In this document: positions 30,067 through 48,298 of the stretch, piece by piece
How positions within the stretch are numbered: the stretch's first letter is position 1
Layout: every line of letters starts with the position of its first letter
DNA from: Thiothrix unzii
GTDB lineage: Bacteria > Pseudomonadota > Gammaproteobacteria > Thiotrichales > Thiotrichaceae
Length of the DNA stretch: 64,000 nucleotides
Assembly (NCBI RefSeq): GCF_017901175.1
Contig: NZ_CP072793.1
Coordinates: forward strand, 1,240,001-1,304,000
Reading direction: 5' to 3'
Translations under genes and position numbers: made by a program
The notes under the pieces: generated by a model
Told to the model about the DNA's origin: nothing
The model's input: only the letters and a program-made list of their open reading frames with translations
Database searches by the model: none

Positions 30067-30858
30067 TCAACCACCCATATTACGCATTCCCCGGCAAGCC
30101 GGAAAACGCGGGCATCCCCAGAACATCTTGCCCACATTCGGGCCATTGCGTGTTTCGCGCATCACCATCGGGCTACCGCATTGAGGGCATGTGGGTTGTG
30201 TCGTGGGATTTTTGGATGCGGCACTTTTGAGGTGCTGGATATGTGCCTGACGGGTAGCAAGGGAGGGTGCTAAGCGGCCTGCTTCAATGGCGGCAATGTA
30301 TTCTTGGACTTGTGTTTCCGACAACATCACGTCAGTCATCGACTTGATGTAGCGGATATAGCCACCCGCACGCACCACATTGGCTGGCATCTCCGTTTTG
30401 AAGGTGCAATCCCCTGTAAACACGATCACCGAATGCAGGTGTTTTAGCTCAACATCCAGACAGGCTTGCAGTGTTTTCAGGTGCTTGTAGTTCTGGCGTA
30501 GTGGGTTCTGGAACTTGAACGACTGTTTGTAAAGCTTCTGTGTCCACGTTGGCTGCTGTTCGCCACCAAAAATCCAGCCCTGCATGTTTTTGGTTTCCAC
30601 CACGAAAATACCGTAGCGGGACACAATGATGTGGTCAATCTGGGTTGTGCCGCCATCTTCTGTCGGCAAGGTGACATCCTTGATCAAGTGGTAATCATGC
30701 TTGTTGAGGGCAAGACTGGAAGCCAGATTGACAGCCCATTCGCCCATTGCACCTTTGAAGCGGACGGATTTGAAGAACGCAATCAGCAGAAATAATGGCA
30801 AAAGCCAGAAGAAGCCTGTGAAGACTTGGGCAATGATGGGGGTGAAGTCGAGTTGCAT
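30067..30858 (-). CDS. NERD nuclease-domain protein with topoisomerase-type zinc finger
   Basis: This protein of about 263 residues has an N-terminal membrane helix (about 12-32). A NERD domain (about 45-160) follows with TQIDHIIVSRYGIFVVETKN, a PD-(D/E)XK-like D...E-x-K arrangement. At the C-terminus is a CPQCG...G-P-MVMRE...WGCPRFPACRG zinc ribbon of topoisomerase type. ATG 30858 is used, with an upstream AGG; the frame continues to 30915. It is the last gene of the eight-gene operon, 8 bp after the exonuclease gene. NERD proteins recur in defence islands. A DNA-cleaving or binding role is inferred. Confidence 0.78.
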   Translation of the reverse strand: MQLDFTPIIAQVFTGFFWLLPLFLLIAFFKSVRFKGAMGEWAVNLASSLALNKHDYHLIKDVTLPTEDGGTTQIDHIIVSRYGIFVVETKNMQGWIFGGEQQPTWTQKLYKQSFKFQNPLRQNYKHLKTLQACLDVELKHLHSVIVFTGDCTFKTEMPANVVRAGGYIRYIKSMTDVMLSETQVQEYIAAIEAGRLAPSLATRQAHIQHLKSAASKNPTTQPTCPQCGSPMVMRETRNGPNVGKMFWGCPRFPACRGMRNMGG

Positions 30859-30866
30859 GGTAAAAC

Positions 30867-45900: not shown

Positions 45901-48298
45901 GCTCACGGGGATCAAGGTAGCGCGAATCAATACATAAATTCTTGTGCATCTGTCCGAAGACAAAGCGGGCAAACGCCATCCGGCTTTGCAAACCCAGTTG
46001 ATCCAGTAATGGGGTATTGGCAAATAACTTGTCTTGGGCGCAAAAATCCTCAAGCCCAATGTAATCAATGTCGAGGATTCTTAACTGGTCGAGGTTGGGG
46101 TTATTGAAACGCCAACCTTTGCGCAGGTCACGCAACAGACGATAACCCAATACAAACCGCAAGGCGCGTTGAGCTTCCAGCTTGGAAAATCCCATCAGAT
46201 TGGGTGAGCGCAGGTATTCAACCAGTACGTTTTCATCATCTTGACCAAAACCAAGGGCGTTGAACACTTCATCCGCCAGATTCTGTTCGGATAACTGCCC
46301 CTGATTCGTTTGCAAGGCTGCGACCAGCCCACCACGCAAGGTCAACAGGAAAATCAGGTCATTGAAATGCCCAGCCTGCAACGCTGCATCTTGCCGATTA
46401 TCCGTAAAGCCCAACAACTTTCTGGGGTCGGGTTGCATATCCGGGTCAACTTCAGCAAACAGGTGCTGTAACAAATTCAGTGTCAGGATAGTGGTGGCGG
46501 AAGAACGTCCCTCACCAGACAGGCTTGATAAGCGATTGGCATCTTTGCCGTAGCCCTCATGCAAATGGCTGCATGACAAACAGAAACGGAACTTGCCGGG
46601 AATAAACCAATAGCGGACACCACGCCCGATATGACCTGTGGCATCAACTTGAATTTCATAAGGTTGAGCGTTTTTGTAATCTCGCTTCAGTTTCCCTTCT
46701 TTTTTCGGGTCGAACCAAGTTTCCGGCAACTCCTCAATGTGTCCATGATAGTCCTGTGCATCACGCATCGGGGCAATGAAACCATATTCTTTGGCCTTAT
46801 CATCATCTTTGGCGGGCAGGTCATCAATGCTTCTGGGTTCTATCTTCTGGGTCTTGTCTTTCCATACCGGGTGATATTCCTGCCCACACTCCCGACAGAA
46901 ATGTGTTGGAAATAGCAAAATGCCTTGATCTTTGCGACCGGGAGCAAAACGCTGGGTATCCAACGTAATAATGCGCTCATTTTCGTCTTCCAACGTAGCC
47001 GACACTTTGCCGGGGCCGCTGATGAACTGGTGCAATTTGAATGCAAAGGGCGGAGCGCCTTGTAGAGTCTTGACTCCATCGACCGCATTGGCTGCCAGCA
47101 GAAAAGCCTGCAACGCGGCTTTTGCTTCGTCATTACTGACACCGGCATCCTGTGCCAGCGATTGGCTGGCTTCCGTCAATGTCAGCGGTTTGGCTCGTTC
47201 TGGTTTATCCCAACCGTGGGGGTAATCAATGCTCAGTTTCAACTCAACCCATATTGCTAACGGGTCTTGTCGGAAAGCATCAAAGTTGTCCCATTGAAAC
47301 TGCTTGGTGCGAATTGCCGCCTTTAAATAGGGGCGAACGGCTGCAATATTTTTTGAGGGTTCTGTTACACGTTCCAGCGTTTCATCAATGACGTTATCCG
47401 CAACGATGTTGGCACCAAACAGCTTGGAAGCAACAGAGGCAATCGTGTTTTTCTTGTCTGCGGTCGAGCCTTTATTGGACATGGTGGCAGACGTACCGAT
47501 ACAGATTAACTTATCTGCTTCCAACCTCTGCCTGAGCCTTCTCACCAACATGGCGACATCGGCTCCCTGACGACCACGGTAAGTGTGCAGTTCATCCAGC
47601 ACCAGAAACTCCAGACCATGACAATGTTCCACTACCCGACGATCCCTTGATTCGTAACGGGTCAGGATCAATTCCAACATCATGAAGTTGGTCAGTAATA
47701 TATCAGGCGGGTTACTGGCGATTCGTTCCCGCTCTGCGGTTTCATCCTGCCCAGTATAACGTTCTACAGTAAAAGGCTTTTTGTCCGCCGCATAGCCATG
47801 CAGGAACTTGTTAAGTTCTTCCAACTGGCTGTTTGCCAAGGCATTCATGGGGTAGATGACGATAGCCCGCGTCCGTGGTGTCGGGTCTTTTTCCTTTGAT
47901 CTCAGTATCTGATCCACGATAGGAATGAAGAACGACAATGACTTGCCTGAACCCGTCCCTGTCGTTACCACATAGCTTTTGTCTTCTTTGGCGGCAGTGA
48001 TCGCCTCAAGCTGGTGCGTATACAAGTGAAGAGGAGCAGGTTTCCCATCCGTTTTGCCTACCTGGAAAATGTCTGCACAGAGTGGGTGTAACAGTCCCTG
48101 CTTAACCAAATTCTGGACACTATCTACACGCTTGTAATTGGGGTTTATCTGGATCAGGGGTTCAGGCCAGTAACGCCCCTTCTGATACTCACCGTCAATC
48201 CTATCCTTAATATCTGAAGCTGCTATTCTGGTAAAACTACGTGAGAAAAGACTGTAGCCACTTACCAAATCATCACGTAAATCAAAAACATCCAACAT
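42986..48298 (-). CDS. Giant DEAD/DEAH helicase with C-terminal DUF1998 (DrmA-DrmB/DruE-like)
   Basis: The 1770-residue protein is the first gene of the defence operon. The helicase core has Walker A [12 protein letters not shown] (about residue 114), motif II [16 protein letters not shown] (about 236), and [32 protein letters not shown] (about 1042). Zinc-binding CSLCGYGH and CEHCG follow (1341-1370). The DUF1998 end shows EAAEGGAG and [12 protein letters not shown] (about 1632). Size and order equal a DrmA helicase joined to a DUF1998 protein such as DrmB; Druantia DruE is similar in plan. It probably moves along DNA while handling invading duplexes. An AGGAAA site precedes ATG 48298. Confidence 0.87.
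   Translation of the reverse strand: [1770 protein letters not shown]

Follow-up and report, generated by a model that had tools for sequence, protein, structure and literature searches.

A 64,000-nucleotide stretch of the genome of the gammaproteobacterium Thiothrix unzii (positions 1,240,001 to 1,304,000 of contig NZ_CP072793.1; hereafter the window) encodes on its minus strand an operon (30067-48298) in which a YprA-family helicase, an SNF2 helicase and an adenine methyltransferase are followed by a Rad50/Lamassu-like hook ATPase and four nucleases. Our comparisons with related loci indicate that the C-terminal tail of the methylase, of about 160 residues, and the hook ATPase look like one cassette of about 2.5 kb that is gained, lost and exchanged together. 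We see an even chance that this is a portable Rad50/Lamassu-like sensor cassette, which would dock on DNA methyltransferases via a shared C-terminal tail and be insertable in, removable from and exchangeable among ARMADA, class-1 DISARM, Type I and type IIG-like systems, giving them a second structure-sensing or guard input. In the window, the PglX/Eco57I-like methylase core (residues 1-1426; 35883-40160; Pfam Eco57I and N6_Mtase) contains a variable target-recognition block. It continues into the tail (residues 1427-1584, i.e. 158 residues; 35406-35882), the proposed docking half of the cassette, while the second half is a 681-residue hook ABC ATPase of the Rad50/Lamassu/DUF2326 type (33350-35395).

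In ATPase-bearing loci the tail follows a conserved YRTxxLVL block of the methylase and spans 154-232 residues in 63 of 64 full-length proteins; the exception, L037, has a tail of 94 residues with the remainder in a separate open reading frame (ORF). Among the ATPase-free methylases that were scored, the tail is 0-22 residues in 12 of 13, the exception being L132, whose ATPase spans two ORFs; L093 and L094, both in this count, are near-identical strains. Once L132 and four split methylases have been set manually, tail and ATPase are concordant in all 72 rows of the SNF2 tree (60 with both and 12 with neither). Each character requires 9 changes on this tree, whose well-supported branches provide 7 independent contrasts, all of them concordant (p = 0.016). 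The locus sample was partly selected by the ATPase; of the twelve regions found through the SNF2 gene, 7 have the ATPase, 3 lack it and 2, which run into contig ends, are undecidable. The homology between the window methylase and the ATPase-free methylase of Acidithiobacillus caldus stops at residue 1426.

A tail profile built from the ARMADA rows, and then iterated, points to the same module in other kinds of systems. In its first form it matched the ORF before the ATPase in Type I restriction loci (L057, E = 1.8e-45; L026, which clusters with L057, E = 4.9e-12) and in a type IIG-like methylase locus (L041, E = 9.9e-22; methylase 835 bits in PADLOC). It also matched L029 (2.1e-22) and L092 (1e-28), which resemble L041 by make-up rather than by a methylase scan, and gave weak matches in DISARM loci (L039, 1.4e-8; L018, 0.0035). 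The iterated profile matched the ORF adjoining the ATPase in 91 of 94 loci, missing L010, L031 and L047; the L031 methylase does have a tail, but another ORF intervenes before the ATPase. In ATPase-free loci it retrieved just stretches of 31-54 residues at ORF ends, which in complete methylases are core residues within the seed. L092, an IMG/VR contig filed as viral, encodes a methylase-like ORF with the tail, the ATPase and an SNF2 helicase.

The same length difference is seen in DISARM loci. Methylases of DISARM systems without the ATPase are 1308-1344 residues long (5 of 5 fetched) versus 1490-1527 residues in 6 of 6 DISARM-like methylases with it (L018, L039, L047, L048, L067 and L080), and the tail profile is significant in five of these six, all but L047. 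L018, the only one of the six with a PADLOC scan, is a complete class-1 DISARM system (DrmD 1019, DrmMI 1147, DrmA 903, DrmB 266 and DrmC 202 bits) with the ATPase between DrmMI and DrmA; L039, L048 and L080, placed by clustering with L018 genes, carry the same tail and ATPase there. Likewise, in the Type I loci with the cassette the tail is on the ORF preceding the ATPase, with an HsdR-type engine (REase_I 807 bits in PADLOC for L057; L026 by clustering) in place of the YprA and SNF2 helicases.

Exchange of the cassette is most evident between near-identical operons. For instance, the SNF2 proteins of L066 and L034 are 98.4% identical versus 23.6% for the ATPase and 28.0% for the tail; the corresponding values are 96.6%, 23.1% and 26.5% for L070 and L012, and 97.6%, 31.6% and 31.1% for L081 and L078, whose HNH proteins are 83.2% identical. 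DNA matches between such operons stop where the methylase core ends; for L081/L078 and L072/L081 they resume at the HNH gene past the ATPase, with a patch of about 170 bases at 68-72% still matching within the ATPase. The methylase target-recognition region forms a second differing block between the paired operons. An empty site is apparent in L131, which has no cassette: its matches to L062, at 71-73% identity, meet at one base (L131:6362), where L062 has 2,516 bases in between. The window repeats this pattern at greater distance: against A. caldus (L094), L123 and L084, identity across the core is 53-65% as far as methylase residue 1418-1428; in the ATPase it drops to 25-28% versus L123 and L084 (A. 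caldus has none), and in the HNH protein it is back at 49-52%.

The hook ATPase displays a Walker A motif, a CPVC hook and a C-terminal HDCPREAD block, and yet the window protein has 0 Pfam hits; its Rad50-like character, as proposed in an earlier first-pass annotation of this DNA, is therefore borne out by motifs and predicted fold and not by a Pfam family. DUF2326 is matched by 31 of 54 aligned members, the window protein not being among them. A structure predicted from the 54-row alignment (predicted local distance difference test, pLDDT, 88.7) has a hook ABC fold, whose nearest neighbours are the YydD-YydB entry 9a6c chain A (E = 5.6e-18) and Lamassu LmuB (3.6e-15), followed by Rad50 and SMC proteins. 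The sequence match to LmuB entries (3.7e-6) runs over the coiled-coil part, and sequence searches of the PDB returned mainly coiled-coil noise. Of the 54 aligned members, 53 have Ser and one has Cys directly after the Walker B aspartate, and none has Glu. LmuB has mostly Gln at the matching glutamate position and may hydrolyse little or no ATP (PMC10586767). The family thus resembles the Lamassu and ABC-3C ATPases (LmuB; YydD-YydB) in being a short hook ABC ATPase of about 650 residues without the Walker B glutamate, and these are its nearest solved folds; it differs in having a methylase tail as partner and in lying, in the window, between the methylase and a DUF1016 gene. No separate LmuA effector and no LmuC or middle component was detected among the eight genes in Pfam or the PADLOC matches listed. 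An anticodon nuclease of the RloC type was another candidate for this ATPase; we set it aside because the invariant columns listed for the alignment include no extra conserved Arg/His motif beyond the ABC motifs and the model has no added domain.

The ATPase has matches in 3 of 369 genomes of the class (own genome included, one of them weak) and in 8 of 72,556 plasmid records (E 1e-5), and nothing was found in E. coli genomes by a DNA-level search with its gene. A two-pattern scan of 84,980 species genomes recovered 246 stretches, 214 of which encode relatives of the ATPase. In the best 80, which were kept, an ORF matching the methylase profile is present in 75 and ends no more than 250 bases from the ATPase start in 72, and all three ARMADA-type core genes are recognisable within 10 kb upstream in 46.

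The three-gene core itself is already known: the locus looks, by sequence family and gene order, like a variant form of the ARMADA Type I kind. The 1770-residue gene 1 product (42986-48298) is a YprA-family (DUF1998/MZB) SF2 helicase with Pfam DEAD, Helicase_C and MZB domains, and is 58-59% identical to the homologues in A. caldus (L094) and L123. Its best PADLOC models are DruE, as expected for ARMADA, at 318 bits versus 54 for DrmA; hence the DUF1998 helicase assignment stands, but this is a single fused protein nearest DruE and not DrmA. The SNF2/RapA-like helicase of the BrxHII/DrmD/DpdE group (938 residues; 40173-42989; Pfam SNF2-rel_dom and Helicase_C) matches the PADLOC model PDLC02853 over nearly its full length (692 bits) and DrmD at 302 bits, while the methylase falls between DrmMI (220 bits) and type IIG enzymes (172 bits). 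None of these three core proteins reaches an NCBIfam cut-off. The usual order in ARMADA Type I is a YprA helicase, a BrxHII/RapA-like helicase and a PglX-like methylase (Bell et al. 2025 preprint, PMC12458937), and the window presents the same order with a BrxHII/RapA-like SNF2 protein and a PglX-like methylase. The suggestion that the locus belongs to no described system consequently fails for genes 1-3. Relative to ARMADA Type I, the window has in addition an HNH gene and the pair of methylase tail and hook ATPase, and the Vsr domain of its YprA, predicted to be active in ARMADA I (PMC12458937), is degenerate. ARMADA Type II has homologues of the same three proteins in another gene order and a fourth gene, absent in the window, for a GajB-like helicase with a RelE-like domain; it is anti-phage in E. 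coli, by a mechanism described as direct and non-abortive, with no metabolic shutdown (PMC12458937). DruE, a relative of YprA, is reported to be a helicase-nuclease acting on single-stranded DNA-containing replication intermediates (PMC13192584), which fits a core working on replicating phage DNA.

Other assignments fare less well. The likeness to DISARM that had been proposed holds insofar as a DISARM-related helicase-methylase-nuclease defence operon is well supported, with an SNF2 helicase and a PglX-like methylase as in class 1, but the locus is not DISARM itself: DrmA and DrmB are separate there and accompanied by DrmC, whereas in the window the helicase and the DUF1998 module are fused in one protein with DruE as its best models, the NCBIfam DrmD model gives 337 bits versus a cut-off of 610, and DrmC is absent from the PADLOC matches listed for the eight proteins. 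The same matches include no DruH, the Druantia III component. Hma, also invoked earlier, comprises an HmaA-type helicase with partner genes; this likeness was dropped, as the SNF2 protein scores 197 bits for HmaA versus 692 for PDLC02853. A DpdE label for the same protein in PADLOC was rejected since none of the eight proteins has another Dpd gene type as its best hit. At E 1e-60 the SNF2 gene has matches in 13 of 398 genomes from the phylum and, among relatives, in 2 of 115, with its own genome counted in each figure; the 15 listed genomes of the same genus yielded none. The ARMADA I helicase is present in 72 of the 72,556 plasmid records (E 1e-30), and phage records searched at the protein level with SNF2 yielded nothing.

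A second distinguishing feature concerns the YprA C-terminus, which houses a Vsr-type nuclease site in other ARMADA I helicases and in which alignment shows the D...DGxxH motif to be absent in the window (42989-43411, limits approximate). The Vsr-like motif (DGxxH and flanks) is kept in HNH-free loci and lost in loci with a separate HNH gene, the window belonging to the latter. Excluding the window, 79 loci with a YprA ORF were considered, of which 15 with less than 3 kb of, or unknown, downstream sequence were dropped; with the stricter pattern, the 64 usable loci comprise 33 degenerate with HNH, 28 intact without, none intact with HNH, and 3 others. In L104 the Vsr domain is visibly intact, one residue off the pattern, with no HNH; in L102 it is degenerate, with IS21 genes in the HNH slot; and in L028 the chosen YprA ORF ends elsewhere, leaving the Vsr state unread. 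A looser pattern gives 32 degenerate with HNH, 30 intact without, 1 intact with HNH and 1 degenerate without, a chance DGxH string having made L011 and L102 intact; the by-locus Fisher value for this count (9e-16) is not leaned on because the association is weak by independent events. The window HNH_2 endonuclease (31445-32230; Pfam HNH_2) has active-site residues H163, N181 and D190, which are invariant in a 44-row alignment including it, and 30 of the 89 loci walked have an HNH gene within the operon. The predicted active Vsr domain of ARMADA I is described as typical rather than as a definition (PMC12458937). Judging from these alignments, the separate HNH protein seems to replace the nuclease domain lost from YprA.

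Several observations weigh against this view of the locus or parts of it. L047 has the ATPase and no detectable tail; in L010, a Paracoccus versutus plasmid, HNH comes after the ATPase but nothing upstream matches the methylase, SNF2 or YprA, and this locus is either a remnant or a different arrangement. Some ARMADA I loci have no ATPase (e.g. L094, L100, L124, L130 and L131), which is thus not essential to the type. A Foldseek search with a modelled tail, that of L084 rather than of the window, gave nothing significant (best E 0.95; LmuC 1.2-1.4), and Pfam found no consistent family in 36 tails, one of which matched a transposase model, so that not every row is clean. PADLOC has no family for the ATPase, and the template-modelling (TM) scores of its model are modest (0.32-0.55 for YydD-YydB and LmuB; 0.32-0.42 for the LmuB chains). 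The ARMADA I assignment is by family and gene order. The Vsr and HNH characters change 2 and 3 times, respectively, on the tree, and its well-supported branches provide a single independent pair. Base composition is equivocal. The G+C content at third codon positions (GC3) is 0.32 in the window tail and 0.31 in the ATPase versus 0.52-0.68 in the other genes (DEDDh and NERD being taken from a few codons before their ATG), and yet the strongest GC3 changepoint within the methylase falls at codon 880, not at the cassette junction, and across 60 other loci the ATPase is mostly AT-richer than SNF2 as well (median -0.08, lowest -0.21; window -0.25). Composition as a sign of recent cassette insertion was accordingly rejected, the junction not being singled out, and is kept as supporting only.

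With the architecture as described, we entertain, with about as much confidence as doubt, an ARMADA-type restriction system that would use HNH as its main nuclease and the ATPase, docked on the tail of the methylase, as an exchangeable sensor of DNA or infection. The methylase would mark host DNA and test incoming DNA, and its tail would hold the ATPase, as LmuB is thought to be held by its Lamassu partners. The ATPase might clamp an abnormal state of the invader DNA, such as ends, branches or replication intermediates, and could be an ATP-locked switch, a proposal made because Ser or Cys, not Glu, follows the Walker B aspartate throughout the family. Its signal would allow both helicases, SNF2 and YprA, to load on DNA that lacks the modification, which the HNH protein, in place of the lost Vsr domain, would cut, with the DUF1016, DEDDh and NERD proteins as optional auxiliary nucleases. 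We propose that the swapping of cassettes reflects arms-race selection on the sensor or its target, as for the adjacent target-recognition block.

Abnormal-DNA sensing is preferred on account of the kinship with Lamassu; a methylase guard is almost as good a fit. In such a model, which we hold possible though on the unlikely side, the tail and ATPase would watch the methylase or restriction complex, sensing not DNA but a phage anti-restriction protein or DNA mimic, upon which the ATPase would switch on a nuclease or growth arrest, as PARIS does; RloC is another guard-like example. PARIS senses Ocr (PMC12839542). The occurrence of the tail on methylases of several kinds of systems, the swapping of tail and ATPase as a block, as expected of a guard under arms-race pressure, and the ATPase-free operons, which show that the core can do without the ATPase, are all in keeping with a guard. 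Speaking against it, no toxin domain is recognisable in the ATPase, either by Pfam in the window protein or in the hook ABC model, and some loci with ample downstream sequence have no later gene in the operon (e.g. L023, L028 and L069). A role in modification, with an SMC-like clamp loading the methylase on the host chromosome or controlling which DNA is methylated, would account for the methylase tail being the constant partner while helicases and nucleases vary. We consider it improbable, as ATPase-free homologues with 54-64% identical methylase cores (L094 and L095) indicate that the methylase can do without the ATPase, and its relatives in Lamassu are believed to sense invading DNA (PMC10586767).

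The first-pass annotation had instead read the locus as one new eight-gene system with all eight proteins cooperating. Its description of eight tightly coupled head-to-tail genes on the minus strand is confirmed by the ORFs and junction lengths, and the families it named agree with Pfam except for the ATPase. The junctions are -4 bases (YprA/SNF2), +12 (SNF2/methylase), +10 (methylase/ATPase), -8 (ATPase/DUF1016) and -4 (DUF1016/HNH). Overlaps of 100 and 49 bases in the last two listed ORFs originate from TTG starts; with the ATG starts taken from the translations (31448 for DEDDh and 30858 for NERD) these junctions become -4 (ATGA) and +8, and all lie within -8 to +12 bases. This coupling favours cooperation of the whole set. 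Nevertheless, we find a single eight-gene system very unlikely: besides the match of genes 1-3 to ARMADA I, a search for co-occurrence across genomes showed that the set recurs in none of the annotated loci, and the eight genes are not a conserved unit. The DUF1016/YhcG PD-(D/E)xK nuclease (32227-33357; Pfam DUF1016_N and YhcG_C), an optional passenger, occurs within the operon at 3 of the 89 loci walked, one of which, L049, has it between the ATPase and HNH as in the window, and two of the three copies of its family in the T. unzii genome lie outside the operon. Neither the DEDDh 3'-5' exonuclease (30867-31448; Pfam RNase_T) nor the NERD nuclease with a zinc ribbon (30067-30858; Pfam NERD and Zn_ribbon_Top1) is an operon neighbour in 118 loci: the first 92 yielded one weak opposite-strand match for the former and one weak match 3.5 kb past the ATPase for the latter, and 26 more yielded none, in single-sequence searches that may miss diverged members and that for part of the 26-locus set counted matches above 40 bits. 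The idea that four nucleases and a hook ATPase take the place of DrmC falls into two parts: the ATPase goes with the methylase tail, and HNH, alone recurrent among the four nucleases, is present where Vsr has decayed.

The slots around the cassette elsewhere hold RES-HEPN, Schlafen/AlbA, reverse transcriptase, UvrD helicase, GmrSD, Peptidase U49 and SMODS proteins (20 proteins scanned). One gene family recurs downstream of the ATPase in both ARMADA-type and DISARM loci (L012, L018, L019 and L066); its L012 member is a RES protein whose N-terminal domain is of the HEPN type. A related gene of about 535 residues is found between SNF2 and the methylase in L058, L066 and L087, the L058 member having SLFN_AlbA_2 and HATPase domains, and in the A. 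caldus plasmids L093 and L094 a VapBC-type toxin-antitoxin pair is inserted between the same two genes.

Beside the operon, 24115-30045 (plus strand) encodes a TraI_2 relaxase, a TraD/TraG-like coupling protein, a DUF4400 protein and a HerA-like ATPase; on the other flank, 48638-52407 (minus strand) encodes a CHAP protein and a 481-residue ATPase matching just the C-terminal part of DndH (564 bits). The operon is likely within an integrative conjugative element, although none of the 14 PF00589 integrase matches of the genome lies inside the window and the limits of the element were not found. Five of these matches have identical scores and frame lengths (301 residues) and are probably one repeated element. 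A PIN-domain gene adjoining a helix-turn-helix gene (55630-56654, minus strand) is likely a toxin-antitoxin pair, and the region at 59365-63193, with tRNA-Met, a sigma-70 (rpoD-like) gene and a dnaG primase gene, is probably chromosomal. That the operon serves DNA repair or chromosome maintenance rather than defence, as the repair roles of YprA/MrfA relatives (PMC12458937) and of Rad50 might suggest, is the least probable reading of all given the patchy distribution of the SNF2 gene, the flanking conjugation genes, the variable block of the methylase and the anti-phage activity of the experimentally tested relative, ARMADA Type II (PMC12458937).

Relative to ARMADA, two elements look new: the cassette of tail and ATPase, and the HNH protein accompanying a degenerate Vsr domain. 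A term search of the main text of PMC12458937 gave zero mentions of SMC, Rad50, ABC ATPase or DUF1016, and HNH solely in a reference title. No report of the cassette or of HNH replacing Vsr was found in the literature search, including passages of PMC12839542, PMC10853773 and PMC12904381; subscription papers lay largely outside this search, and an earlier mention is possible. Sensing of the Lamassu type and restriction based on methylation are commonly regarded as distinct kinds of immunity, and, if the docking of the ATPase on the methylase tail is correct, one cassette would link both. The searchable tail would then provide a simple rule for finding hybrid systems, and the swaps between near-identical operons a way to learn what the hook ATPase senses, while the replacement of Vsr by HNH, if true, would predict the cutting protein in each ARMADA I lineage.

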